DNA of 40,401 nt from Promethearchaeota archaeon (lineage in GTDB: Archaea; Asgardarchaeota; Lokiarchaeia; Sigyniarchaeales; SOKP01). Position 1 is the first letter of the stretch. The number at the start of each line of letters is the position of its first letter. This document shows positions 2-40,401 of the stretch, piece by piece. A program made the translations under genes and the position numbers. The notes under the pieces are model-generated. The model worked only from the letters and a program-made list of their open reading frames with translations, did no database searches and was not told the DNA's origin. The stretch lies in contig DAOUVJ010000009.1 of the NCBI GenBank assembly GCA_030667705.1, positions 1-40,401 of the forward strand, in the 5' to 3' direction.

Positions 2-2764
2 GATGCGTTTCTTTTTGATTCACCTCAAAATACTTTTCGAGTTAATGGAATAGCGAACTTCATTTCAGATTCGATTAATGATGGAGGTTGGGGATTTAAA
101 GGAAATCCATTATTAAACGACTCAGATATTATTACTACTTATAATGCGATTTATTTAGCAAATAGATTCTCGAAAAACTTTCTAATCAACGATACTAACA
201 TCGGAAAGTTCATTAATTCAACTTTTCTTCCCACAGGGGGGGGAATAGGCTATTTCCTAACAAATAATTCATTCTCCATAACTTTAGAATCAAATTATTA
301 TGGAATTAGAGCGTTTCAAGATTTAGGCATGAACTATAGTATTTCAGAAACTTTACCAATTTGGACGTTCATATTTTCATCATTTAACAGTACTGATGGA
401 GGATATAGAGACCCTCTTAGCTTGAGATCTGATGTCCAATCTACATATTTTGCGTTAGCAGCATTAGAAACTCTTGGGTACTCATTTCATAATGAGACTA
501 AAACATTGGAATTTCTAATCCAAAGCCAGAATGTTGATGGTGGATTTAGTTCAGCTCCCAATAGTGAATCTGATTTTAAATCAGGATGGGCAGCTATAAA
601 AGCAATCGATCTATTAAAATCTGAGATGGTTCTTTCTATTGCTCAAAAAGATTCAATAAACCAAACTACAATTGACTATTATAATTGGTTGCATTACTTT
701 CAAGCCTTCAATACACTTTTTGGGTCAATTACATTACAATCAAATTATGATGGTGTGTTAGCACTAAAGAATTATGCTCCTGAAACGTTTATTAATTCCT
801 TATTTGAAGATTATCAAATTATTTCCATATTGAACTATGTAAATGCTTGTTTTAACCTTTTTGATTATGGGTTTGGTCCACGACCTAACCAAAATTCAAC
901 CTTATTTTCTACTTATTGTGCTTTAAATATAATAGAAATGTTTTTGCCTTTCAATTATGAGGATCTTGGGGAAACAATTAGAATCTTATCTCTTACAACA
1001 TCCAATTATTTAATTGAACTTCAAAATAATGACGGAGGATTTCGAGCAGGAGGTGATATTGATTATATTTTATCATTATATATTCCATATAATGATGTAT
1101 TTCTCAATTTAATTGATACAAATATTTCAGTTGTACAATCCACATATTGGGCATTAGATTCGTTAGTATTCTTAGATTCACTTGATAAAATTGATAATGT
1201 GAATCTTACTCATTGGGTTAGGTCTTGTCAGAATGCTGATGGTGGTTTCTCCATATACATCGGATTTCACAGCGATACCATATCTACGTATTATGGATTA
1301 GAGATATTTAATGAGCTTTTATATCAAGAACCAATGTCAATAATAAGCGTGATAGAATTTCTGAAAAGCGCTCAAAACACTGATGGGAGCTTTTCTTTAC
1401 TTCCAGCATTAGGAACATATTTAGACTTACCTTCGAACTTTTTAGTGACTTATCTTGCTTCAAAAGCATTATATGACTATAACTACCAGCCTGAGGAGAT
1501 CGAAAAAACTCTGATTTGGTACGCAGGATGTATTAGTCAAACAACTGGAGGAGTAGGAGATTCTCCCGGATTTGGAGGAGATCTTAGGAATGTTCCATAT
1601 GGTATATTAATAATTGATGAGTTAAAAATAGATCAAAGTTTTAACTCGAAGCCGTGGAACCAGATGCTGTTTTATATTTTACTAACAGAAGCGGGTTTAA
1701 TCATTTTATATATACTTCTTAAAGTTTATCAAAAACTCTCCATTCCTCAAAAGATTAAGCTGAGGCTAGGAATTGGAGAAAAATTTACTCCAAATTACTT
1801 GAAACAATTTTCTGCTATTGACTGTGAGAATTTGAGTGTATTTGTGGGGAAAAAATTAATAGTAGATTCAGTATCATTGAACTTGCAACACGGAAAAATT
1901 TTAGGGATTCTTGGTGAAAGTGGTGCTGGTAAGTCAACATTCATTAAAGGATTACTTGGAATGCGTAAACTCACCGGTTTTTGTCGAATTTACGGATTGG
2001 ATATTAATAAACGGAATGCTCGGAGAATAAGGCCGATTTATGGATATGTTCCTCAAGATTTAGCTAAATTGTATCTTGATTTTACAGTACTTGAAAATAT
2101 TTTTTATTTTGGAAATCAATATGGATTGACGGAAAAAGAAATCTATAGTAGGTCGAAAAGAATCTTAAGAAATTTGGAAATCGAAGATAAAACAAATGAA
2201 TATGTCCGAAATTTATCCGGGGGTCAAAAACGAAGAGTAAGCATTGCAATTGGATTAATTCATAATCCCATTTTTCTCATTTTAGATGAGCCTACTTCAG
2301 GACTTGACCCAATAATTCGAGAGAGTTTATGGTTAACTTTAACCAGGATAAATGAACAATTTGGAACAACATTAATAGTCATAACTCATTATCCCGAGGA
2401 ATCAAGATTTTGTAATTATGTAGCAATTTTTGGTAGAAATCGTGGGATGATAGATTATGGAAAACCAAAAAATTTATTATCCCAATTACCTGGGAAAGGG
2501 CGATCAATTGAAATTACCTTCAAAGAAGTAATACATGAAGCAATAGAAAAGTTAGAAGCCATCGATGGCATCGATAAAGTCCTTGAAAATAAAGCAGGTA
2601 CTGATTTTTCACTTTTCACAGAATTAAATATAAAGAAGCTTACCGAAGGAGTAGAAAAAATCTTTGGAGGTTTTATCATACAGCAGATTAAGCAAACGGA
2701 TGCCAGGATGGAGCAATTTTTCAGATATAAAGCAATGGAGGTACCAACTATTGAAGAATTCTAA
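2..2764 (+). CDS. Alpha/alpha-toroid repeat - membrane helix - ABC ATPase fusion protein (5' partial)
   Basis: The reading frame is open to the first base of the window, so the true start lies upstream; the first internal ATG is at 329. Residue numbers below count from that Met. Up to about residue 440 the protein is built of roughly eight repeats of the prenyltransferase/squalene-cyclase type, with motifs such as QNVDGGF, QNNDGGF, QNADGGF and QNTDGSF, each followed by a (S)TYxAL helix. I see no DxDD cyclase motif or clear zinc-ligand set, so binding rather than catalysis is likely. One hydrophobic helix (about 445-467) follows, then a complete ABC ATPase: Walker A GESGAGKST (529-537), signature LSGGQ (629-633), Walker B with D653-E654, and the H-loop in VITHY. 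By topology the toroid should lie outside the cell and the ATPase inside. The gene overlaps its downstream partner by 14 nt. The domain assignments are strong; the function is unknown. Confidence 0.85.
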   Translation, partial: DAFLFDSPQNTFRVNGIANFISDSINDGGWGFKGNPLLNDSDIITTYNAIYLANRFSKNFLINDTNIGKFINSTFLPTGGGIGYFLTNNSFSITLESNYYGIRAFQDLGMNYSISETLPIWTFIFSSFNSTDGGYRDPLSLRSDVQSTYFALAALETLGYSFHNETKTLEFLIQSQNVDGGFSSAPNSESDFKSGWAAIKAIDLLKSEMVLSIAQKDSINQTTIDYYNWLHYFQAFNTLFGSITLQSNYDGVLALKNYAPETFINSLFEDYQIISILNYVNACFNLFDYGFGPRPNQNSTLFSTYCALNIIEMFLPFNYEDLGETIRILSLTTSNYLIELQNNDGGFRAGGDIDYILSLYIPYNDVFLNLIDTNISVVQSTYWALDSLVFLDSLDKIDNVNLTHWVRSCQNADGGFSIYIGFHSDTISTYYGLEIFNELLYQEPMSIISVIEFLKSAQNTDGSFSLLPALGTYLDLPSNFLVTYLASKALYDYNYQPEEIEKTLIWYAGCISQTTGGVGDSPGFGGDLRNVPYGILIIDELKIDQSFNSKPWNQMLFYILLTEAGLIILYILLKVYQKLSIPQKIKLRLGIGEKFTPNYLKQFSAIDCENLSVFVGKKLIVDSVSLNLQHGKILGILGESGAGKSTFIKGLLGMRKLTGFCRIYGLDINKRNARRIRPIYGYVPQDLAKLYLDFTVLENIFYFGNQYGLTEKEIYSRSKRILRNLEIEDKTNEYVRNLSGGQKRRVSIAIGLIHNPIFLILDEPTSGLDPIIRESLWLTLTRINEQFGTTLIVITHYPEESRFCNYVAIFGRNRGMIDYGKPKNLLSQLPGKGRSIEITFKEVIHEAIEKLEAIDGIDKVLENKAGTDFSLFTELNIKKLTEGVEKIFGGFIIQQIKQTDARMEQFFRYKAMEVPTIEEF
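2737..2742 (+). promoter_or_regulatory. Shine-Dalgarno GGAGGT deciding a TTG start
   Basis: A perfect GGAGGT lies inside the end of the upstream gene, 8 nt before the TTG at 2751. The in-frame ATGs at 2664 and 2700 lack such a site and would force an overlap of 65-100 nt, so the TTG is the better start for the second ABC-like protein. Confidence 0.65.
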
Positions 2765-4484
2765 AAATACCGAGCTTGAACGTATAAGAGAAAAGATCGT
2801 TGATGCTATCCGTTCTTCTCGTCGCTTTTGGATAACTTTTCGAGAAGGTACTTTTGGTATTGCTTCAATAGTCAATCTAATATATAAAAAATCGTTTGTG
2901 GAAGTATTATTTTTTACTAACTCAGATGTTATGGAAAAAGGAGTTCCCTTACTAAAAATTTACACTCCTCTTGAAGATGAGATCGATTTTGACGAAATTC
3001 TCATAGAACCAGATTTTGATGAAGATGGTCTCATTAGCCCCAAAAAAATTATAAGTCGCATGAGAAGACTCATTCTTAGAGAGTTTCAAAACCATCTTGG
3101 GATATTAGATCAAGAAATAAGGTTAATTGATGATCATTATGAGAATTACGCAATTGATAATATCCCATATCATAGAGAAATTAGGATTTCATATTCCAAT
3201 TTTATTATTTCAGTAGATATTAATTTTGAAAGATATCCTCTCCCCCCAATCATATCTTTTTCAACTACATTAGCAAAAATTATATCTGAAAGGGATTTTC
3301 ATGAACAAGATATATTTTCAATTTGGGAGGTGAATAAATCTCCTCACATAATAGAATTAGTAGATTTATTAAGCGAACTCGTTGCTGATAAGTTGAAAAT
3401 AAATCGTTTACCCCAAAATTCTCAATTTTTGCGTCTTAATAACGTATCAATAGGGGATACCATTAGGAGCATCTCACTTAAAATTCATAGAGGAAAATCA
3501 ATTGGAACCATTTATGGGGGTTCTGAAGGAGGTGAGGAAACATACCAATTTGATCTATTAAACCTATTTGAATCAATTATGGGTTCTAATAAAGATTTTT
3601 CGGGAGTTATCCAACTTTTTGGAACTTCAGTTCAACTCATACCAAAAGAGAATTTGAAACATTACTTTATCATTCCCGAAGCATATGATGCAAAAATACA
3701 AAATATAAAACTCAGAAAAGCCATTAAATACCAGATCAATTTAAAAGAAGCATTTAAATCACAAAAAAGTGAATTAAATCATATTCTAAAAAATGCGGGA
3801 TTTACTCCAAGCTTGGATAATGTCATGGGAGATTTCTTAGTAGCAGGAACTTATCACTTGAATAGAGGAAAAAAATTCATAAATAAAGCTTTAGAAGTAA
3901 CTGGATTATTAAATAAGAAAAATAAAAGATTTAATGAATTAACTCCCTTAGAATTCTTCCAATTCTCTATTGCTCGAACTTTATTACAATCTCCAAAAAT
4001 AATCATGTTTTCAATTCCTCCAGATCTCCTCGGAAAGCTTGATTTTGATAAATTTAATAATTATATTAATAGCATTAAGAAAAAATTTCATCTTGTTCTA
4101 ATAATTCATGGTCCTGAGGAGGTTATTTCAGAATGTGATGAAATTCTCACAATTAACAAAACTGAATCAAAAATTGGAACATATAATCAATATATTAATG
4201 AATTACCTAGTTCTGGAGAGGTCATTACAGTAGAATTAGATAATCCAAGTGAGGATTTAATGGAATCCTTTTTGAATTTGAAAAGAATATCATTAATTTT
4301 AGAAGAACGTCAAAATGAGAAATATAAACTGTTTATAAAAGAGAATCCAAATGAAGTTCTTGTCGACTTGACAGAACTTTTTGGTTCAAAGTTATTTAGC
4401 TTTAGAAGAACAAGAGCCACATTATTGGATTATATAAATTTTAAGTGTAATATAGATGAATTAAAGGTGGAAAAAAATGTTTAA
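2751..4484 (+). CDS. UBC/RWD-like domain fused to a degenerate ABC ATPase
   Basis: I start this 577-residue protein at TTG 2751 because of the GGAGGT 8 nt upstream. The second half aligns by layout with the ABC ATPase of the preceding gene, but every catalytic motif is eroded. The Walker A position reads GGSEGGEETYQF with no GKST, the signature region is LTPLEFFQFSIA, and the Walker B position ends IIMFSIPP instead of a DE pair. It is therefore probably a non-hydrolysing pseudo-ATPase partner. The N-terminal half contains beta-strands, then FERYPLPPIISF, then IWEVNKSPHIIELVDLLSEL. This recalls the YPxxPP-to-helix layout of UBC/RWD folds, and there is no Cys at the expected active site. The UBC/RWD reading is inference from pattern only. 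The stop overlaps the next gene's ATG by 8 nt, implying translational coupling. Confidence 0.7.
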   Translation: MKNSKNTELERIREKIVDAIRSSRRFWITFREGTFGIASIVNLIYKKSFVEVLFFTNSDVMEKGVPLLKIYTPLEDEIDFDEILIEPDFDEDGLISPKKIISRMRRLILREFQNHLGILDQEIRLIDDHYENYAIDNIPYHREIRISYSNFIISVDINFERYPLPPIISFSTTLAKIISERDFHEQDIFSIWEVNKSPHIIELVDLLSELVADKLKINRLPQNSQFLRLNNVSIGDTIRSISLKIHRGKSIGTIYGGSEGGEETYQFDLLNLFESIMGSNKDFSGVIQLFGTSVQLIPKENLKHYFIIPEAYDAKIQNIKLRKAIKYQINLKEAFKSQKSELNHILKNAGFTPSLDNVMGDFLVAGTYHLNRGKKFINKALEVTGLLNKKNKRFNELTPLEFFQFSIARTLLQSPKIIMFSIPPDLLGKLDFDKFNNYINSIKKKFHLVLIIHGPEEVISECDEILTINKTESKIGTYNQYINELPSSGEVITVELDNPSEDLMESFLNLKRISLILEERQNEKYKLFIKENPNEVLVDLTELFGSKLFSFRRTRATLLDYINFKCNIDELKVEKNV

Positions 4485-5280
4485 AAGTTTGTATATCATG
4501 GATGAAAATGGACATTTATTGTATTCAAAGAATTTCATGAAGCAGCAATATGATGAAAATATTTTAATCGGTTTCTTCACGTCTATAGCTAATTTTAGCA
4601 GAGAAGCTTTAGGGGGCGTGGTAAAGAATTTAAATTTAGGACAAAATAATAAGCTCATATTATTACCAAATGCGGAAGAAAGATTATTAGGTGCAGCTAT
4701 AGTAAGTGATAATGATAATGAAGAGCTAATTTCTCGAATTTTAAAAAATGTCTTGCAGGATTTTATAGATACTTATTCTCCCGATTATGAGATTGAAAAA
4801 ATTCTCGAGGAAGAAATGCAACATATTGTTAATTCCAATTTAAGCGATAATATCCTTCATTCTCCCTTAAAACGATTGATATTATCTTGGATAATTGTTG
4901 GTCCTTTAACATATCCCTTGATTTTATTGAGCATTTACGCAACTAATTTTATATATCTCATTTTAGATTTGAATCGATTTCTCTCCCTAGAATTCCTCTT
5001 TACTCGATTCCTCCCAGCTTTAATCTTGTTATCAATATTTAATATAATTATTCTGTTCTTAATACCGAATTTCGTCCTGGGTTATCTTTCTCCAAATAGG
5101 AAAATAGCTTTTCTTAATTCAATAATATATGTAGGAGTATCTATTACCTTATACTTTTATTCTTCTGAGCCAAATTTCGCGTATATCGTTATTAGTAATT
5201 TGCCTTTAGCGTTAATATTTTCATTATTTTTCCTATTTGTAGGTACACGGTACTCTTCAAGGAAATTTCTGAAGAAGTAA
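4477..5280 (+). CDS. Longin-like domain protein with about four membrane helices
   Basis: This 267-residue protein starts at an ATG 6 nt after AGGTGG, overlapping the previous stop. Residues 1-105 look like the longin/roadblock-type alpha-beta domains abundant in Asgard genomes: it opens MFKSLYIMDENGHLLYSKNF, then has a helix through GFFTSIANFSREALG, further beta-strands, and a C-terminal helix ISRILKNVLQDFIDTY. After a short acidic linker come about four hydrophobic segments (roughly 130-165, 172-205, 210-228 and 235-260), and the protein ends in a basic tail. It could be the membrane subunit of the complex formed with the two ABC-type proteins, with the longin domain facing the cytoplasm. 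The membrane region resembles no transporter family I recognise. The longin call is by pattern, not by search. Confidence 0.65.
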   Translation: MFKSLYIMDENGHLLYSKNFMKQQYDENILIGFFTSIANFSREALGGVVKNLNLGQNNKLILLPNAEERLLGAAIVSDNDNEELISRILKNVLQDFIDTYSPDYEIEKILEEEMQHIVNSNLSDNILHSPLKRLILSWIIVGPLTYPLILLSIYATNFIYLILDLNRFLSLEFLFTRFLPALILLSIFNIIILFLIPNFVLGYLSPNRKIAFLNSIIYVGVSITLYFYSSEPNFAYIVISNLPLALIFSLFFLFVGTRYSSRKFLKK

Positions 5281-5591
5281 TTTATTTATTTATTTATTTT
5301 TATTAAAAAAAAAATTACTTCCACTATTTAAATATTTGAGAAAGCGAATAATTAAATATTGAAAATATAATAACATTTTCAAAAGATATGGATCAATTTT
5401 AATAAAAGATAATATTCATCGAAGAAATTTTGCATAATTGGAATTGATGAGGATCTTAGATGAAAGGAAAGATTATATCTTTCAAAATTGCCACCATTAT
5501 TACAAAGATGTTAGGGTTTGGGTTTTGAATTAACATTGGTAAAAAAAGGTTTCAAGTTGATTTCATAATATCAACTTAAGAGGTATATAAT
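5281..5591. other. 311-bp intergenic region
   Basis: It begins with a T-rich stretch containing tandem TTTA units (5281-5301), a plausible archaeal terminator for the ABC/longin operon. The middle has no credible ORF or RNA gene. Near its end lies a 7-bp inverted repeat (5554-5560 and 5571-5577), directly before the AAGAGG ribosome-binding site of the response regulator. Confidence 0.5.
5554..5577 (+). promoter_or_regulatory. Inverted repeat before the response regulator
   Basis: AAGTTGA and TCAACTT form a perfect 7-bp inverted repeat with a 10-nt spacer, ending just before the AAGAGG Shine-Dalgarno at 5578-5583. It could be an operator or a small 5'-UTR hairpin hiding the ribosome site. In such AT-rich DNA chance is possible. 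Confidence 0.3.
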
Positions 5592-5957
5592 ATGATTTCT
5601 GTTTTAATTGTAGAAGATGATTTGTCCTTACAGCGACTTTATGAAATGATGTTAAAAACATTTGGATTTAATGTTTTAGCGAAAGCTAGTAATGGAAAGG
5701 ACGCGATTGATGTTTTCATATCTTTGGATATTAAACCAGATGTAATCCTAATGGATCATAGAATGCCCGTAAAAAATGGAATTGATACAACAATAGAAAT
5801 TCTTAAATGCAATTCGCATTCAAAAATCATCTTCGTTAGCGCTGATAAATCAATTAAGAAAGAAGCTTTATCTATAGGTGCGTCTCGTTTCATCGAAAAA
5901 CCATTTAGTGTAACAAAATTACACGAGGAAATTAATAAAGTAGTACAAAACCCTTAA
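5592..5957 (+). CDS. Stand-alone CheY-like response regulator
   Basis: This is a single receiver domain of 121 residues with no output domain. All expected residues are present: the acidic pair D9/D10, phospho-acceptor D55 in LMDHRMP, S83 in VSADK and K103 in EKPF. AAGAGG 8 nt upstream of the ATG fixes the start. No histidine kinase is encoded in the window, so its partner must be elsewhere. It would act by phosphorylation-dependent binding to another protein in the cytoplasm. It lies between the ABC/longin operon and the flavoprotein operon, with about 220-310 bp on either side, so it is probably transcribed alone. Confidence 0.9.
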   Translation: MISVLIVEDDLSLQRLYEMMLKTFGFNVLAKASNGKDAIDVFISLDIKPDVILMDHRMPVKNGIDTTIEILKCNSHSKIIFVSADKSIKKEALSIGASRFIEKPFSVTKLHEEINKVVQNP

Positions 5958-6182
5958 ACAAACATAATAATACAAATCTCAAGGTCAATTTTATCACTCA
6001 AGCTCATTTCTTAACAAAACTCTTATTTAAATGTCATCTACAATAAAATTATAAATGACAATAATACTATTACTATTTTTGGACAAAGTAAATTTAAAAT
6101 TTAGTCATTAATTTATCAATTCAATACATCACTTATGTAAAAAAATCAAAAAATATTAAGATAATTTAAGAGGTTACTAGAA

Positions 6183-7664
6183 ATGAGCTATAAATTACCT
6201 ACAGAAAAAGACCTCGGAGCAATGATCGGTATTGTCGGAAAAGAATATGCTTCCAACAATAAAGCGATCACGGCTTCATACCTGACAAAAGCTGTCATGG
6301 GTTTAGAGGCTCAAATTCCAGACATCATCGTGCGACCAAAATACGTCGAGGAAATCCGAAAAATTCTGGTATACTGCTCTCAAGAAAAAATAGCTGTCAG
6401 CCCTTTATCTGGTGGATTATCTGGGGGATTTGCTTGCCCCACAATTAAACCTGGAGGGGTATTGATTGATCTCGCTCGAATGGACCGCATCATCGAGATC
6501 GATGAGAAGAATCGCTATGTTATAGTAGAACCAGGAGTCACAAATGGTCAACTCTGGGCATACATGGAGAAATACCATCCTAATTGGGCACCTCCGATTG
6601 CTGATGGTGCACCACCTGCAGCAACTGTAATGGGTGATGCAATCGATCGTGGATTTTCACTATATACGTCCAGTGTTGGGCCCCAAGGTGATAATTTTAT
6701 GGCAGGTGAAATCGTATTCCCTAATGGTGACGTTCTGCGGACAGGTTCCTGGGCACTTCCAACCGCTAAACCTTTCTATAAGTATGGAATAGGACCAGAT
6801 ATGTGGAGTTTTCTCATGGGTTCTCAGGGAACAATGGGAGTCATGACTAAAGTCGCAGTTAAGATTTTTCCACATCCTAAATTCAAAACGGTAATCGCTT
6901 GGGGCATGAGTAATCCCCAAGACATGCAAGATTTAACCCTTGAAGTCGGAATGCAAGAATTCGGAGTTGCGCATAATACAGTAATGGTTCAAGGCGGTAA
7001 TTACCCACTCGTAATGACGAGATGGCCCAAGGACAAGATTCCACATGATTATGCTTTTTACAAGGAAATGGGAATTCCAGAATGGTGGATGAACTGGGAA
7101 TGCTGGGCTCAGAGTCAAGAAGAACTCGATTTTGCAGTTAAAAAAATTAATAGCATGGCAGAGGATTTCAAAGCCAATCGAGCGAAAGATGGCGATGCCA
7201 TGAAACCATGGGTACTCCATCCCAAGCAAATTGCTAGCAGACTTAAAAAACCAAACAAGATAGCTGTTCCATATTCATTATGGGAAGCAGGATTCCTCTT
7301 TATTACGTGGTACACGCCATGGAATGAATGTGCGCATTTTGCTGAAATGTATAACGCAGCAATGGAGAAATATGGTTTCCCACCAGTAATGTGGATTGCT
7401 AGCATCGAACGATGCCGCCAAGCAATATGCATGCCGATTGTGTGCTTCGATTCCCAGAAACAGGAGGATTTCGAGCGAGTTCAAGCATTGAATCTCGAAA
7501 CTACGGAATATGGTTTGAAACAAGGTTGGTTAAATTATCGACCAGACCCATACATCCACGTTCAAGCCTATTACCAAGCGGGAATGTACTGGAAATACTT
7601 ACGCGCGTTTAAAAAGCTTGTAGACCCGAATGGTATAATGCATCCAGGAAGATTAACTCTCTAA
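6183..7664 (+). CDS. GlcD-like FAD-linked oxidoreductase
   Basis: The 493 residues fit the FAD-binding PCMH-type oxidase family (GlcD, D-lactate dehydrogenase, vanillyl-alcohol oxidase). The N-terminal FAD-binding half contains RPKYVEEIRKIL, the glycine-rich PLSGGLSGG (74-82) and VEPGVTNGQLW, and SQGTMGVMTKVAVKIFPHP. The C-terminal half is the cap domain, ending in LVDPNGIMHPGRL, the usual family terminus. The protein should oxidise a 2-hydroxy acid or related substrate and pass electrons to the iron-sulfur protein encoded 19 nt downstream. The substrate cannot be told from the sequence. The gene is noticeably richer in GC than its neighbours, which suggests high expression or transfer. An AAGAGG-like site precedes the ATG. 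Confidence 0.88.
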   Translation: MSYKLPTEKDLGAMIGIVGKEYASNNKAITASYLTKAVMGLEAQIPDIIVRPKYVEEIRKILVYCSQEKIAVSPLSGGLSGGFACPTIKPGGVLIDLARMDRIIEIDEKNRYVIVEPGVTNGQLWAYMEKYHPNWAPPIADGAPPAATVMGDAIDRGFSLYTSSVGPQGDNFMAGEIVFPNGDVLRTGSWALPTAKPFYKYGIGPDMWSFLMGSQGTMGVMTKVAVKIFPHPKFKTVIAWGMSNPQDMQDLTLEVGMQEFGVAHNTVMVQGGNYPLVMTRWPKDKIPHDYAFYKEMGIPEWWMNWECWAQSQEELDFAVKKINSMAEDFKANRAKDGDAMKPWVLHPKQIASRLKKPNKIAVPYSLWEAGFLFITWYTPWNECAHFAEMYNAAMEKYGFPPVMWIASIERCRQAICMPIVCFDSQKQEDFERVQALNLETTEYGLKQGWLNYRPDPYIHVQAYYQAGMYWKYLRAFKKLVDPNGIMHPGRLTL

Positions 7665-7683
7665 ACTAAGGAGGTAAAAAAAA

Positions 7684-9186
7684 ATGGCAAAAACAGGAAT
7701 GGAAAGGTTAGAAGAATTAAAACCAGAAATTTTTAAGTGTATTCATTGTAAAGCATGTCGGTTCGCTTATTCAGGAGAACCTAGTAGAAAAGGTATCGGC
7801 GAACATAAGGGGAAGACGGGAAAAACAATATTATACGAAGGAATGGTAGATGCATGCCCTGCAGGAATAGAATATGGCTGGGAAGCTTTCTGGAATGCGG
7901 GAAAAATATGGATCGCACGCTCAATCCTTACGGGGGACTTAGAGTTTACAGAAGAAGTTAGAGATGTTCTCATGCCCTGCATTACTTGCGGACAATGTTC
8001 TGCTCAATGTGAAAATAAGATTCCTACTGTTGACATCATTGAAGCACTGCGAGCGGCATTGGTTGAGTCCGGAGTTCCCATGATAGAAAAACATCAATTA
8101 GTAGATAGGTTGGTAAAGGAACTTAACAATCCCTACGGAGGCAAGGCAGATGAACGATTTAAATGGGCTAAAGATGCGGGTTTAGGAAAATACGTGGGAA
8201 ATAAAGATGCAAAGATCGGATATTACGTTGGATGTACTGCTAGTTATCGACAAGTTGAAGTAGCAATAGCAACAGCTAAACTTTTCGATCAATTAGGGAT
8301 GAATTTTACGCTAATTGAAGAAGAAGTTTGTTGTGGAAGCCCATTTTTCAGAGTAGGCGCTGTTGATACTGCACAAGAGTTGATGAACAAGAACCTTGAA
8401 GGTTTCAAGCATTTAGATATGGTGTATTTCTCATGTGCGGGATGTTATAGAACTTTTACAATAGATTATCCAAAATGGATGGCTGAAGGAGAAAATCTCC
8501 CCTTTAAAACGCAACATGCTTTTGAATTAATCTCAAGCTTGATAGCAATTCCAAAGAAGAAAAAAGAAATACCTGCAGAAATCGATGCTCTAAAGAAAAA
8601 GCTAAAAGATAAACCTGATAAAAGAGTAGAAGCTCAGTTAAAACGCTTAGAAGCAGAATTAGATAAACTAAAAGATTTTCATGGCGAGATCAAATTTAAA
8701 CCTAATAAAGAATTAAAGGGTAAAGTGGTCACGTATCATGATCCCTGTCATACCGGCCGTCACTTCGCTACTGATATGGAGCAAGAAATGATCAAGAAAT
8801 CAGAGAATTTAATGTTTGACATGCGCAAGATCAATCAGAAAATTGAAGATTGGTTTGATATTCCACGTGTAATTCTTAGAAAACTCGAAGAGGATGTCGG
8901 TATTAAGTTTACAGAGATGTACAGGATCAAAATAAATAGCATGTGCTGCGGAGCAGGAGGCGGCGTGAGAGCTGGTTATCCTGAATTTTCATTGCGCACA
9001 GCTAGTCTTCGGTGCGATGAGGCTAATGCAGTAAAGGCAGATATTTTGACTACGGAATGCCCATTTTGTTGGAGAAACTTAAGCGATGCAAATGAGCAAT
9101 ATGGTCATGGAATGACAGTCATGGGCGTTCTCGAAATGATCTCAAATTACGATATATTGGATATTGTCGAGAATCCAGAATTTTAA
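7684..9186 (+). CDS. HdrD/GlcF-like iron-sulfur protein with two CCG domains
   Basis: The 500 residues contain two N-terminal cluster-binding sets, C19-C22-C25 with C58, and C99-C102-C105-C109 (CITCGQCSAQC). Two CCG (DUF224-type) domains follow: GCTASYRQ, EVCCGSPF and SCAGC (C184, C216, C217, C251, C254), then YHDPCHTGRH, NSMCCGAGGG and TECPFC. A lysine-rich helical insert (about 293-340) separates them. This is the architecture of heterodisulfide reductase subunit D and glycolate oxidase GlcF. The ATG has an ideal GGAGG 19 nt after the flavoprotein stop, so the two are one operon and presumably one electron-transfer complex. The first cluster motif is irregular, with a long gap before its fourth Cys. 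The electron acceptor is unknown; no cytochrome b subunit is encoded nearby. Confidence 0.88.
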   Translation: MAKTGMERLEELKPEIFKCIHCKACRFAYSGEPSRKGIGEHKGKTGKTILYEGMVDACPAGIEYGWEAFWNAGKIWIARSILTGDLEFTEEVRDVLMPCITCGQCSAQCENKIPTVDIIEALRAALVESGVPMIEKHQLVDRLVKELNNPYGGKADERFKWAKDAGLGKYVGNKDAKIGYYVGCTASYRQVEVAIATAKLFDQLGMNFTLIEEEVCCGSPFFRVGAVDTAQELMNKNLEGFKHLDMVYFSCAGCYRTFTIDYPKWMAEGENLPFKTQHAFELISSLIAIPKKKKEIPAEIDALKKKLKDKPDKRVEAQLKRLEAELDKLKDFHGEIKFKPNKELKGKVVTYHDPCHTGRHFATDMEQEMIKKSENLMFDMRKINQKIEDWFDIPRVILRKLEEDVGIKFTEMYRIKINSMCCGAGGGVRAGYPEFSLRTASLRCDEANAVKADILTTECPFCWRNLSDANEQYGHGMTVMGVLEMISNYDILDIVENPEF

Positions 9187-10203: not shown

Positions 10204-10367
10204 GAGAATCATAACATTTTATCGCATAAAGGGATTAAGTAGTAATAAAAATGATATTGATAACTTTTCTATTCGCAAATACTATCTTATAACCTAATGA
10301 TAAGAAATAAATGTTAATATTTTCACTAGTATTAAAAACATGTCGCGGGTTTCGTTAATTGACAAAT

Positions 10368-13300
10368 ATGGAAGATAAAACTGCGTATCCATACATAACG
10401 GAGTTTAAAAAAGAGCCTTATAAATCGTATGCTCTGATTCAGAATAGGAAAATAAGAAGTTTTTACCTCAAGGAATATGATAAGATTAAAGAGTTATTTC
10501 AGAAAATTCCGATTCAAGAGCCTGATCTGAATTTAGAGTATTTGTATTGGTTTCTATTAGGAAGGAAATTTTTAAAAGAACGTCAGGATGATCAAAAAGA
10601 AGAATTTTACAATTTCATCAAAAAATGTGAAGTTGAGATCTTAGAAAAAGATCAAATTGGTTTTAAGATGGCCCCCAGTTCAGAAAAATTACCCGATTTG
10701 TGGTCAACTTACTATGCAATATCTTGTTTAAATCTGTTAGGATTTTTAAGCGAAAGATTAATTTCAGAGAAAGGAGAACCAGATTTCTTAAGAAAAATTA
10801 AGAATTTTGTGTTTGAGCATAAAAAACAAGATAAATTCTTTCATTGCCTTGAAAAAGAGTGTAAATTCAGAAAACAACCTCTTTCTTCCATGACATTATA
10901 TTTTGTACTTGAGATGTTCATCATGCTCGGAATTGATGTGAGAGTTTACAAAGAACAATTCCGGAATTATTTATCTGATAGACATAAGAATTTCCCAATT
11001 GTTTTTAAATTACTTAGCATGAAATATTTAGATCTTGAATATGATGCAAAAGACAAAGAAATTCAATTTCTTCATCAAAATCAAAAAGGTGATGGGGGAT
11101 TTGGTTTTAAAGATGATGTTAGTGATATTAATGATACTTTTTGGGTTGTTAATGCATTAGAAAGTTATTCATGGTTAATGGATTATAACCCTGTTGGTAT
11201 TTTTTCATTCATTAACCTACAATTGAATCAGATTCTAGATCCAAATAATCTTATTGATATCGAGCATTTATCTGACCTATCAAAATTAATCATTTTATTA
11301 TGCTTGATTTGGAAAAAATTTATTGAACACATTGAACGCGTTCTATTCAGGCAACTTGAAAGGCATAAATATATTGATATGCATCAAATTGAGAAAACAT
11401 TTGGTCTTTTTCATGGAATTGATGAAATTGTTTTGTACATTAATCTTAGTTATTCATTTAATCTGAAAATTATTGATAATAAAAAAGAATTTAAATCCTT
11501 CCTATCTGAGCTTGATAATAAACAAGTTTTCTTCTTACAGGAATTTTATACACAATTAGGGGAAAAAAGTATTATTTCATTATCGGAAATTCTTAAAAAA
11601 CAAAAGAGTAAATTTCCCAATAATTCTTTAAAAATAAGGGAAGAAATTTTCCCATTAATTAATCAAATGATAGAGAGGAATTTTTTTAAGGGAAATATAA
11701 GAAGTAAAAGAGGATTCTCCCTTAAAACCAAGCATTATTTCTTTTTAGAATTTCTCCTGGAGAAAATCATCGTTACAGATACAGAAATAAATACTGAACG
11801 AATTTTTGAAGAAAAGGTTAGATTAGAAGAAATAAAAAACGATATTTTTAACATGACTTTAAATTTGAAAAACGCTACGAAGCAAATTAAAGCTGAAATA
11901 GAATCTTATCTTCTAATAGACGAAATTAATTATGCGAAAGAGAGATTAAGATATTTATTAAGGAATTCTTTAATGGAAGCCGATTTTCTAAATGAAAATA
12001 TTGAAAATTCGTTTAATGAGGATTTATTATATATTAATATTCAAGCAACATTAAAGAATGAAATATTGGTTTGGAACAAACTCTATTCTGCCCTTCAAAA
12101 ACGGTTGATAGAAATTGAAAAATATCTATTGGGGAAAATTCAAGAAAAAGAAGAATTAAGAAATTTTACCTTATTATTGGATAAATTAGAAGATAAAATC
12201 TTCGAATTGCATGACCATATTAATATGGATATAAACTCATTTAGAATCAGTATACCAGAACTTTTTGAAGAAGGATATGATGATGAAAAGTTCAATCTTG
12301 TTACCGCCCATTTGAGTAAATTATCTCAAAATATCAATAAGTATGACCAAGTAATCTATAAAACATCTCAACAGATTACTTCAAAAGATAAGAAAACCGT
12401 AAAGAAACATAAAAATGTAATTGATAAATGGATTGAAATTAAGACCGAATTTGATTCTCAATTTTCATATTATACGACTGGTTTTCAATTTTTTAATGAA
12501 ACTCGAGCTATAATTGAAGGAGTCATCAAAGAAATTCAAGTTGGGATTCAACATATTGAAGATGATGTTGTTAATTTAGTAAAAAACAACCAGTTTAAGG
12601 AAGCTTTTGAAATCATTAAGCGACAGTCAGACTTACTTCTCGCACAAAAAAGGGCAGAGATTAAATCTATTGGAATAAATCTTAAAAATGAAATAAAAAA
12701 TAAACAAAAGCTTTTTGCACTTTACAAACACCTTCAAGAGAGTTTAGAAAAGGCGGATGAAAATATTATAGATCTAATCGCAAAACAAGGGCAATCAATT
12801 AAAAATAAAGTTGTGGAGGAACGCAATCGGGCCAAAAGTGAGGATTTGGATAATTTTGTCACCAAGCAAATACAGGAATATAAAACAAGATTAGATACAG
12901 ATAAAGTAACATTAGATCAGATGAAAAAGAAGAAAATTTCAGACGTTTCAAACGGATTTGATAATATATTATCAGATTTTGATATTACAGATAAAAAATT
13001 TAAAAGAAAACATGATGCTCTTCTAAGTATCGTTGATGATTTTGATGAGAAATCAATAACAATTATTCAATGGAATCAATTCAAAGAATTTTTATCAAAT
13101 GAAATTACTAAATTGAAAGAGGAATATATAGATGAAATAATTTCAGATGAGGTAAATTTACTTACAAAAGAAACTGGCTCTGATAAAATAGATATTAAGA
13201 GATTAGCAGATAATTTGAATCTTAAATGTAAGACTGTTATTCCCCGAATTAAAGATCTTATAGAAATTTCTAAATTACAAGGAGAACTTTTTGAAGATAA

Positions 13301-14765
13301 AAAAGAGTTAGTGGTTCATACCAAGGATTATTATAAAAATAAAGAACTTTCAAATTTTGTAGAGAATAAGTTATTAAAACAAATTCAAGAGACTATTGGA
13401 AAGTTTTTGGCATTATATGATTCTTGCATGAAAAATAAAACACTCGGTGTAAATATTCTAGAAATACAAAATAGAATTGATGATCTAAGGGATTTTAATG
13501 TGAAATTCAGTAATGAATATGAGATTAAAGCAAAGGAATTGACATTAAATGAAGAAAGAATGGAAAATATCGACATTAAAAAACGTTTAATAGATATTAT
13601 TGAGGTATATAAACAATCCATATCAAATATTGAGAGTAACTTAAAATTTTTCATTGATATGCAACAATTTATTGATCGTGAATATCAATCTCTCAAGTTT
13701 AATCTAGATAAACATTTTTCTAATTTTTTTGAGGAATCGGAAAAAAGAGAATCTTATGTTAAAGCATTTGAGTTCCTAAAGAATAAAATTGTGAAATTTG
13801 AAGAATATAATAAAAATATACACGAGAAAATTGAACAAACCCTACAAGGAACTCTAAATAATTCATCTGAAATACTAAAATTCGAAACTGAAATAAGAGA
13901 ATATAATGTTAAGAAAAAAAATGAATTTAGAGCACTCTATGATAAGAAGATATTAAAAATCCAAGAAGGAATTGAAATGATTAAATTTGAAACTTATCGT
14001 ACTGAACTATCAGAATCTATCAATAAAACTAAAATTCATTTAAGCCAACTATTAGGAATGTTGCTAGCAAGGGTAGAAGATTATATTGAAACAGAACAAT
14101 TCAAAAAAGCTTATACCAAGATTAAATTAAGAGAGAAAGATATTGAATCTGAAATTAAAGAAAATCATAAGAAAATCAAATACTTAGTAAGAGAATATGA
14201 TAAGTTATCAAATAATTTTGAAACGAAAAATAAGCATCTGATAAAGGATTTTGATAGTTTCATCAACGAATTCCAAGATATTTTAATTGAAAAGGTAAAA
14301 TCTTCTGAGGAACAAATTCTTAAAGCATATGTCAACATGGCAATTAAAGCAGTGGCTCGTGAAGTGTTAACCTTGAGCTTCCTCCAAAATGAGTTAAAAA
14401 TAAAAAAACAAGTAATTCAGAAGCATTTAATATCACTAATTAGTGCTGATCAATTATCTGGTAAATATGATCCTCTTTTAGGGATTTATTATGAAAATCC
14501 CGAAGCTCTTAAAGATTTGGATGAAAAAGAACTTGAGGTAATGACCAAAATGAACTTTCGGGTCCATAGAATAATTAAACGTTTAAAAGTGTTTGGTAAC
14601 CAATATGGGAGTATTTTCGCAATATTTTCTCCATTACTCGCCGTAGTTTACTACTTATTCATGTTGACAGGTCAAAATCCAGGGACAATCCTCATTTCCG
14701 GTTTTTTTGTAGGTGTATTACTATTATACATTCTTTTCAAAAAAAGAAAAGAGGATAAATTGTAG
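10368..14765 (+). CDS. Giant toroid - coiled coil - winged-helix-like - membrane hairpin protein
   Basis: I take ATG 10368 over an in-frame TTG at 10359, giving 1465-1466 residues. The N-terminal 320 residues contain alpha/alpha-toroid (prenyltransferase-like) repeats, seen in LPDLWSTYYAISCLNLLG and QNQKGDGGFGFKDD followed by a helix with DTFWVVNALES. About residues 480-1310 are almost pure Lys/Glu-rich coiled coil. Near 1325-1385 is a compact segment (LSFLQNELKIKKQVIQKHL ... SGKYDPLLGIYYEN) resembling the winged helix of PCI or UFL1-like proteins. Two hydrophobic helices (about 1410-1432 and 1438-1460) and a KKRKEDKL tail finish it. The layout suggests a membrane-anchored tether or scaffold projecting a binding head into the cytoplasm. 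It ends with TAG, about 20 nt from the convergent helicase gene. The winged-helix and tether readings are inferences. Confidence 0.8.
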   Translation: MEDKTAYPYITEFKKEPYKSYALIQNRKIRSFYLKEYDKIKELFQKIPIQEPDLNLEYLYWFLLGRKFLKERQDDQKEEFYNFIKKCEVEILEKDQIGFKMAPSSEKLPDLWSTYYAISCLNLLGFLSERLISEKGEPDFLRKIKNFVFEHKKQDKFFHCLEKECKFRKQPLSSMTLYFVLEMFIMLGIDVRVYKEQFRNYLSDRHKNFPIVFKLLSMKYLDLEYDAKDKEIQFLHQNQKGDGGFGFKDDVSDINDTFWVVNALESYSWLMDYNPVGIFSFINLQLNQILDPNNLIDIEHLSDLSKLIILLCLIWKKFIEHIERVLFRQLERHKYIDMHQIEKTFGLFHGIDEIVLYINLSYSFNLKIIDNKKEFKSFLSELDNKQVFFLQEFYTQLGEKSIISLSEILKKQKSKFPNNSLKIREEIFPLINQMIERNFFKGNIRSKRGFSLKTKHYFFLEFLLEKIIVTDTEINTERIFEEKVRLEEIKNDIFNMTLNLKNATKQIKAEIESYLLIDEINYAKERLRYLLRNSLMEADFLNENIENSFNEDLLYINIQATLKNEILVWNKLYSALQKRLIEIEKYLLGKIQEKEELRNFTLLLDKLEDKIFELHDHINMDINSFRISIPELFEEGYDDEKFNLVTAHLSKLSQNINKYDQVIYKTSQQITSKDKKTVKKHKNVIDKWIEIKTEFDSQFSYYTTGFQFFNETRAIIEGVIKEIQVGIQHIEDDVVNLVKNNQFKEAFEIIKRQSDLLLAQKRAEIKSIGINLKNEIKNKQKLFALYKHLQESLEKADENIIDLIAKQGQSIKNKVVEERNRAKSEDLDNFVTKQIQEYKTRLDTDKVTLDQMKKKKISDVSNGFDNILSDFDITDKKFKRKHDALLSIVDDFDEKSITIIQWNQFKEFLSNEITKLKEEYIDEIISDEVNLLTKETGSDKIDIKRLADNLNLKCKTVIPRIKDLIEISKLQGELFEDKKELVVHTKDYYKNKELSNFVENKLLKQIQETIGKFLALYDSCMKNKTLGVNILEIQNRIDDLRDFNVKFSNEYEIKAKELTLNEERMENIDIKKRLIDIIEVYKQSISNIESNLKFFIDMQQFIDREYQSLKFNLDKHFSNFFEESEKRESYVKAFEFLKNKIVKFEEYNKNIHEKIEQTLQGTLNNSSEILKFETEIREYNVKKKNEFRALYDKKILKIQEGIEMIKFETYRTELSESINKTKIHLSQLLGMLLARVEDYIETEQFKKAYTKIKLREKDIESEIKENHKKIKYLVREYDKLSNNFETKNKHLIKDFDSFINEFQDILIEKVKSSEEQILKAYVNMAIKAVAREVLTLSFLQNELKIKKQVIQKHLISLISADQLSGKYDPLLGIYYENPEALKDLDEKELEVMTKMNFRVHRIIKRLKVFGNQYGSIFAIFSPLLAVVYYLFMLTGQNPGTILISGFFVGVLLLYILFKKRKEDKL

Positions 14766-39078: not shown

Positions 39079-40401
39079 TTATTTGATATCCTTAAGATTT
39101 GTCGGAGTTCCATCATAAATATATTTTTGATATACTAACTCTTGGGGATAATATTTACATCCAGAGGGATAAGCGGAATCTTTGATCCCACCTAATGCAA
39201 CGGTTATATCTGTTAACATGGGTCTAGCATTAATATATATATTCGCTGCTTCTAAATCTCTCTTGAAAATTTCGATGTCATTCAAATTAGAAGTGTACAC
39301 TACCGCTCTCATACCATAGTTACTAGCATTTGCGAGTCTAATAGCATCTTTTAAACTGTCTGCCTTAGTAATTGAGCGTACGGGTCCAAAAGCTTCTTCG
39401 CGCCATAAGAACGGTGCTTTGCTTAAATCTTCGCATAGTTCAGGTTTGATTTCTACTAGTGTGGGTTTATAAAATAATCCATAATCTTCACCAGTATCAA
39501 TTTTATCGCCACCAGTATATATTTTGACACCATAATCTTTAGCGTCAGCCACCATGACCTCCATCATCATTAGTATTCGGCGACTTCCTAATGGTCCAAT
39601 ATCAACAGTGGGATCTGTGGGATCACCGTATCTCAATTTTTCAATTTCTTTTATTAAACACTCCACATAATCATCATAAATATCCTGGTGCACTATAATT
39701 CTCTTCATGCTAAAACATTGCTGTCCACTGTTAGTATATGAGGCCATGGCATTCCACTTTGCTACTTTCTCTAAATTAACATCATCCATTACTATTCCAG
39801 CATCATTTCCGGCGCACTCAAAGAAGAATTGTTTAAAGGGTTCGGTGTACATCGCGACACCCATTGATTTATCTGCTGTTTTTTTCAGCAGCCGTCCATA
39901 TCTCACAAGAATGTCTTTTGCCGTGTGCGAGGAGGTAACCGTCATGATAATCTTGATTAAATGAGATTTAAGAAATTCATCCACGGCCCATTCTCCTGGC
40001 GCGATTACCAAATCTAATGCATCTAACCCCTGCAAATCAATATCCTACATGTTTGAATATGATTCTAACATGGTTAATTGGCATGCGGTAGATGGTTTAA
40101 CAAGCGCACCATTTCCTACTAAATAATTAGCACCCATCTGATAAAGGGGAAGGCTAATTGGAGTGTTTCGAGGAGAAATACACGCAGATAATCCGTGTGG
40201 AATGTATTTTAGTATTACATTTTGCTCTCCTTCAATACCCGTTAATGGCTTGTCTTTTATAAATTGATAATACCAATCACAGAAACGGAAGCCCGTAAGC
40301 ACAATATTCAATTCCCATTCCGAATATTTGATCGGTAAACCTCCTTCTGCTACAACTAAATCTTTTAGTTTTTTCTTTTTAAATCGCATTTTACTTGCAT
40401 A
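39079..40401 (-). pseudogene. Aldehyde dehydrogenase interrupted by an in-frame TAG (5' partial)
   Basis: Two segments in the same frame are separated only by one TAG (40045-40047). The frame is open from the window end through ALVKPST to SNM, then TAG, then DIDLQGLDALDLVIAPGEW to the end. Together they form an aldehyde dehydrogenase: the cofactor-binding KPS, SS (TVTSSHT), general-base Glu in FFECAGNDAG, catalytic Cys in NSGQQCFSMKR and EEAFGPV. The N-terminal 60-80 residues lie outside the window. The catalytic residues are intact, so the break is recent, a sequencing error, or recoded. TAG ends other normal genes here, which argues against routine readthrough. Confidence 0.75.

Follow-up and report, generated by a model that had tools for sequence, protein, structure and literature searches.

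The 40,401-nucleotide stretch of DNA analysed here (hereafter the window) is contig DAOUVJ010000009.1, positions 1 to 40,401 of the forward strand, from a Promethearchaeota archaeon within the Lokiarchaeia (GCA_030667705.1), and corresponds to contig C179 of genome G000 (3.1 Mb, 228 contigs). As judged from sequence and gene order, an operon of six genes, p1-p2-A-B-C-longin, is represented in the window by its 3' half, the first three genes of the contig. The operon encodes two permeases (p1 and p2), an ABC ATPase (A), a second ABC ATPase that carries an outer toroid domain (B), a degenerate ABC ATPase with UBC/RWD-like domains (C), and a longin-like membrane protein. We consider it likely that the products of all six genes form a single exporter of type V (ABC-2), present in Lokiarchaeia and certain other Asgard archaea and operating by the mechanism proposed below. 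The longin domain and the UBC/RWD repeat that it brings into an exporter are elsewhere characteristic of the traffic and ubiquitin machinery of eukaryotes. The initial annotation of the window had suggested that no system of this composition has been described, and the literature that we searched, which was covered in part, likewise yielded no description of one.

Gene order and distribution of the operon

The reading of three overlapping genes at the start of the window holds exactly: the second gene starts at TTG and the third at ATG, and the overlaps are of 14 and 8 nt (coordinates in Table 1). The TTG start of gene 2 is a choice, as the longest open reading frame would begin at 2664. An overlap of 14 nt like that between genes 1 and 2 is seen again in loci L075, L076, L080, L083, and L084. 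Gene 1 is open at the 5' edge of the contig, which begins within it. The 141 bases that open the window also close contig C171 of the same genome, without a mismatch, and exact overlap of contig ends is a typical residue of a branch in the assembly graph. Contig C171 carries the permeases of the window's own genome, p1 (5203-6357) and p2 (up to 7581), then ATPase A (7585-8619) and the beginning of gene B. The 141-base identity, together with the identical gene order in relatives, indicates that the two contigs are contiguous and that the toroid gene B spans both. When joined, gene B comprises 1071 codons from stop to stop, with ~150 codons of its 5' end on C171.

In relatives, the toroid gene comes after genes for another ABC ATPase and for two membrane proteins that are paralogues of each other. 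In most loci the six genes follow one another as p1-p2-A-B-C-longin, overlapping or separated by short gaps, in agreement with the earlier proposal of one operon with a conserved order. The full order also occurs in L156 and L158, which represent two further Asgard families, while L160 comprises p1-p2-A-B and then the start of another open reading frame at the contig end. The pseudo-ATPase gene was identified in ~38 genomes of the window's family (61-63 examined), representing 8 of 9 genera, and the longin gene as a rule adjoins it. The median gap between B and C is -12.5 nt and that between C and the longin gene is 25 nt, the latter being <=100 nt in 30/30 loci. Among 63 genomes, 34 encode both permeases and C, 4 encode C only, 1 encodes a permease only, and 24 encode neither (Fisher p = 3e-12). 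The corresponding counts for the toroid and C are 38, 0, 1, and 24 (p = 2e-16); since the genomes share ancestry, these p-values are descriptive. Some nearly complete genomes (e.g., G035, G043, and G034) lack the operon altogether, suggesting that it was gained or lost as a unit.

Not every locus keeps C beside the toroid gene. Two reverse-strand genes sit between B and C in L065 and L089, and the divergent locus L152 has a rearranged gene set in which C is transcribed away from A-B-p1-p2. Such arrangements would fit an ordinary ABC-2 exporter core that shares its operon with a separate signalling unit, comprising C and the longin protein, that does not touch the pump. We regard this as unlikely, given that C accompanies the toroid ATPase in 38 of the 39 genomes that have the latter, and that C itself has the ABC fold and shares its regulatory tail with this group of ATPases.

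Transport core and extracytoplasmic toroid

Both permeases match the Pfam family ABC2_membrane_3 (PF12698; 2e-26 and 6e-29). They are related to each other, each with an outer domain or long outer loop, and the hydropathy pattern of p1 from the window's own genome fits an ABC-2 permease. The best matches of the permease profile in the PDB (8yzp, 8z01, and 9ju6; 6e-28) are titled 'ABC transporter G family member 23-like' and are presumably insect ABCH transporters, which export lipids. The best PDB matches of ATPase A are the phospholipid transporters ABCA3 and ABCA1. ATPases A and B retain Walker A, the Q-loop, the signature, Walker B, and the H-loop in every sequence compared. Gene 1, which had been described as an active toroid-ABC ATPase, matches Prenyltrans (5.2e-35) and ABC_tran (9.7e-27) in Pfam and has intact catalytic motifs, and gene 2 is degenerate as proposed, with Walker A, the signature, and Walker B lost in 30/30 homologues and just a histidine kept near the H-loop position. 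A Pfam scan of genes 2 and 3 gave nothing usable. C nevertheless matches ABC proteins by profile (1vpl, 1e-13), and its fold as modelled by AlphaFold2 (AF2; mean pLDDT 85.6) is nearest to TM_1403, ABCA4, and ABCA7, with NosF and PmtC also listed.

The initial annotation had envisaged a complex of one live ATPase, one dead ATPase, and a small membrane subunit. This plan has to be replaced, as the full unit has two live ATPases rather than one, along with a pseudo-ATPase, a longin protein, and a pair of ABC-2 permeases that carry outer domains. The presence of p1 and p2 means that the longin protein is not the permease, a role that was dropped for it once they had been found. ABC-2 permeases together with two live ATPases support transport, and we consider an exporter function highly probable. 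By sequence similarity, the core appears nearest to lipid exporters, of the ABCA type for the ATPase and of the insect ABCH type for the permeases. A reading as a defence system was discarded, as the PADLOC matches were to generic ABC domains.

The toroid lies outside the membrane between hydrophobic helices 24-42 and 706-724 of the joined B protein, contains repeated DGGF units, and is closest in the PDB to Rab geranylgeranyl transferase beta (4e-16). It is therefore related to isoprenoid-binding enzymes, though without their zinc ligands: in the aligned toroid repeat, other residues stand at the positions that we take to bind zinc in prenyltransferase beta (Thr for Asp, Glu for Cys, and Ser for His). 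With these ligands replaced, the toroid is predicted to be a binding or structural domain and not a prenyltransferase. A cell-surface enzyme (a cyclase, or one of prenyl or glycan transfer), which the ABC parts would just anchor and power, might account for the strong Prenyltrans match and for the residues that are invariant across distant homologues, namely those around GxGDxPxFGxDLRN and two cysteines. It is hard to reconcile with the loss of the zinc ligands and with the toroid alignment, in which the SHC DxDD motif was not seen, and we consider it very improbable.

A second toroid protein is encoded at 10359-14765 of the window (1468 aa), with an N-terminal Prenyltrans match, a likely long coiled coil, and C-terminal hydrophobic helices. 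It stays near the operon in several relatives.

In the mechanism that we propose, p1 and p2 would pair, and A and B would form a heterodimeric motor beneath them. The toroid, tethered to B, would lie outside and over the outer domains of the permeases, where it would take or pass on substrate, and the toroid-B link would mechanically couple ATP binding to substrate handling. The substrate may be a lipid or isoprenoid-linked surface compound; this is the weakest step of the proposal and is put forward tentatively.

Another possibility is a BceAB-like or peptide-responsive sensing or resistance module, in which the transporter would recognise an antibiotic or peptide outside the cell at the toroid and relay this to a two-component system, with net transport as a secondary activity. 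The similarity of the permeases to SagH and DrrAB is compatible with this, as are a PAS histidine kinase and a response regulator that follow the longin gene in several genomes of the window's genus, the response regulator being present in the window. BceB has the FtsX/MacB fold, however, whereas the permeases encoded here are of the ABC-2 type. Moreover, the kinase/regulator pair is limited to few genomes while the six genes are spread over families, and the kinase, a PAS protein, shows no obvious connection to the transporter. Collectively, these considerations make such a module quite improbable. In L074, L075, L076, and L082, the PAS histidine kinase lies between the response regulator and the longin gene.

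Several observations weigh against a single exporter with a lipid-type substrate. The co-occurrence counts are counts of genomes, which are related by ancestry. Neighbourhoods without permeases exist: in G041 the permeases are on a different contig, and none were detected in G001 at E <= 1e-60. Resemblance to NCBIfam families is scattered among drug, bacteriocin, and nodulation-factor exporters (DrrAB, RbbA, SagH, NodIJ, and GldA), which leaves the substrate unfixed, and ABC-ATPase similarity is too general to fix one.

UBC/RWD-like repeats and the longin domain

A single UBC/RWD-like domain had been suggested for gene 2. The fold is present at the N-terminus, but as two domains rather than one: the AF2 model of C has two consecutive alpha-beta4-alpha units ahead of the ABC domain, and domain 2 has the UBC/RWD topology, with YPxxP in the turn from strand 3 to strand 4 and a Trp that is invariant. 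Direct Pfam scans of the N-terminal domain of C returned no match, and its best PDB sequence match (RPB8, E = 0.005) was taken as chance. The profile of domain 2 matches three repeats of a protein of 581-583 aa from the same genomes (L194 in G000 and L197 in G008), and the G008 homologue was also matched in a whole-genome search (5e-9). This repeat protein passes the Pfam cut-off, for UQ_con in L197 and for RWD in L194, and both N-terminal domains of C in L152 match its first two repeats, in order (E-values from a two-sequence database). Sequence homology of the C N-terminus to curated UBC/RWD members can thus be traced transitively, through L194 and L197. No conserved cysteine was found in the domain 2 alignment and, therefore, E2 activity is not expected. 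UBC/RWD-like repeats on a dead ABC ATPase are an architecture not found elsewhere, and a partial search of the literature returned no paper linking Asgard archaea with an RWD domain. The repeat protein itself (L194:262-2007 on contig C201 of the window's genome; L197:475-2226) comprises four UBC/RWD-like repeats and a Cys/His-rich, RING-like tail.

The third gene had been annotated as a longin-like membrane protein. Its predicted secondary structure (bb-a-bbb-aa, where b is a strand and a is a helix, followed by long hydrophobic C-terminal helices) agrees with this, in a model with a mean pLDDT of 80.9 and a weak stretch at 43-47. The best Foldseek matches in the PDB are AP-2 sigma (1.5e-4), AP-3 mu (TM-score of 0.73 by target), COPI delta/zeta-COP, and TRAPP subunits. 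No Pfam or PDB longin match was obtained by sequence profile, such that the domain was detected by fold search only. Related longin domains occur many times over in these genomes, and 41 longins were counted in the first Loki genome (PMC4917890, PMC10933270). In strain MK-D1, small-GTPase genes reportedly do not as a rule share operons with genes for longin or roadblock proteins (PMC10933270), and the literature searched, again covered in part, held no paper joining Asgard archaea, a longin domain, and an ABC transporter. Here, a longin gene is tied to one membrane machine across genera and families, providing a testable set of partners.

Within the proposed exporter, C and the longin protein would form a cytoplasmic regulatory or docking arm. 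C would act as a non-hydrolysing ABC partner that presents the UBC/RWD modules, while the longin domain would offer a docking site to a small GTPase, or to some other longin/roadblock partner, that positions or gates the pump. We offer a GTPase or ubiquitin-like docking arm as a possibility only, with about the same reserve as the substrate. More doubtful still is the composite picture, in which a small GTPase bound to the longin domain, together with UBC/RWD-mediated contacts, would control where a lipid or surface-polymer exporter is placed or how active it is. If true, it would represent a pre-eukaryotic archaeal case in which trafficking-type and ubiquitin-type modules are wired directly to a membrane transporter.

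Probable introns, neighbouring features and comparison with known systems

In seven relatives that span five genera (L067, L070, L074, L076, L077, L086, and L089), an insertion of 31-34 nt that contains stop codons divides ATPase A precisely at the DEPTT/GVDA junction in Walker B. These insertions are probably archaeal mRNA introns of the bulge-helix-bulge (BHB) type, a reading based on sequence and predicted pairing that replaced an earlier one of broken genes. Each can be folded into an outer helix of 3 bp, a bulge of 3 nt (ACA), a central helix of 4 bp, and another 3-nt bulge whose last base is A. Of the 49 pairs expected, 48 are formed, and removal by the standard rule gives an open frame in 7/7. 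Five pairs are changed on both sides, and the covariation score was reached by no shuffle. Translational bypass was considered as an alternative, but the 4-bp central helix, the 3-nt bulges, and the compensatory changes favour a BHB. Applied to 224 genomes, the intron model returned the same seven sites and one chance match, in G102 and not within an ABC gene. ATPase A of the window's own genome is without the intron. A 2020 paper knew cbf5 mRNA as the only such case and itself added a substrate in a Haloferax 5' untranslated region (PMC7714728; PMC2738675). If spliced, mini-introns of this type at the Walker B motif of an ABC ATPase would be a rare protein-coding example.

A small Zn-ribbon-like protein, F8 (CPxC...HHFQxFxDKxFxxRGYxKxDF; L214:4751-5098 and 14 relatives), is encoded next to the operon, on its upstream side in some loci and on its downstream side in others. 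It was rejected as a core member, having many paralogues per genome and occurring also in genomes without the operon. At the far end of the window (40045-40047, minus strand), a lone in-frame TAG interrupts an aldehyde dehydrogenase gene, the halves of which match successive parts of the Pfam profile; it may reflect recoding, a mutation, or an assembly error.

Table 1. Coordinates in the window of the operon genes, their domains, and an associated gene.
Feature	Position	Strand	Basis or remark
ATPase B: outer alpha/alpha toroid, transmembrane helix, ABC ATPase and C-terminal domain	2..2764	+	5' end cut by contig edge
Extracytoplasmic toroid, Prenyltrans family, repeated DGGF units	2..1650	+	Pfam; zinc ligands not kept
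Second transmembrane helix of ATPase B (first on C171)	1664..1720	+	Hydropathy
Intact ABC ATPase domain: GESGAGKST, LSGGQ, ILDEPTSGLD, VITHYP	1814..2491	+	Pfam, motif comparison
Pseudo-ATPase C: two UBC/RWD-like domains followed by a dead ABC domain and a regulatory domain at the C-terminus	2751..4484	+	
UBC/RWD-like domain 1, residues 1-120	2751..3110	+	AF2 topology; sequence homology through L152
UBC/RWD-like domain 2, residues 113-222: YPxxP, invariant Trp192, no conserved cysteine	3087..3416	+	
Degenerate ABC domain: Walker A, signature, Walker B lost	3426..4205	+	
Longin-transmembrane protein	4477..5280	+	
Longin domain, residues 1-125	4477..4851	+	
C-terminal hydrophobic helices, modelled as four long helical stretches	4864..5265	+	
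Response regulator (associated, not core)	5592..5957	+	

Among known systems, insect ABCH-type exporters provide the top PDB match of the Asgard permeases, but are single-chain half transporters with no accessory subunits of this kind. GldAFG-type systems and a three-gene Asgard relative share homologous ATPases and a permease with the six-gene unit, but have another outer partner and, in the loci read, no toroid, no dead C, and no adjoining longin gene. The three-gene system is widespread in the phylum (L159:572-8716, L153-L155, L157, L161-L164, L166, and L167) and comprises two ATPases, one of which is extended at the N-terminus (TrmB-C-like in L161 and L159), and a single ABC-2 permease. 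It is often found beside a giant protein, which in L159 has subtilase, GIFT/DUF4350, and GldG-like parts. Asgard longin and roadblock proteins share the longin fold and are present in many copies in Loki genomes, but the papers on them discuss links to GTPases and traffic rather than a transporter operon (PMC10933270, PMC4917890). NosDFY is likewise an ABC-2 transporter with a partner protein outside the membrane, and its ATPase NosF appears in the list of folds matched by C; however, NosD is a separate protein, whereas the Asgard toroid is covalently joined to an ATPase. The ABCA family phospholipid exporters (ABCA1/3/4/7) and type V ABC-2 exporters share several features with the unit: ATPase A is closest to ABCA3 and ABCA1, C folds like ABCA4/7, TM_1403, NosF, and PmtC and has the C-terminal regulatory domain, and the permeases have a long outer loop. 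The Asgard unit differs from them in its separate chains, its two live ATPases and third dead one, its fusion of a toroid to an ATPase, and its UBC/RWD and longin parts.

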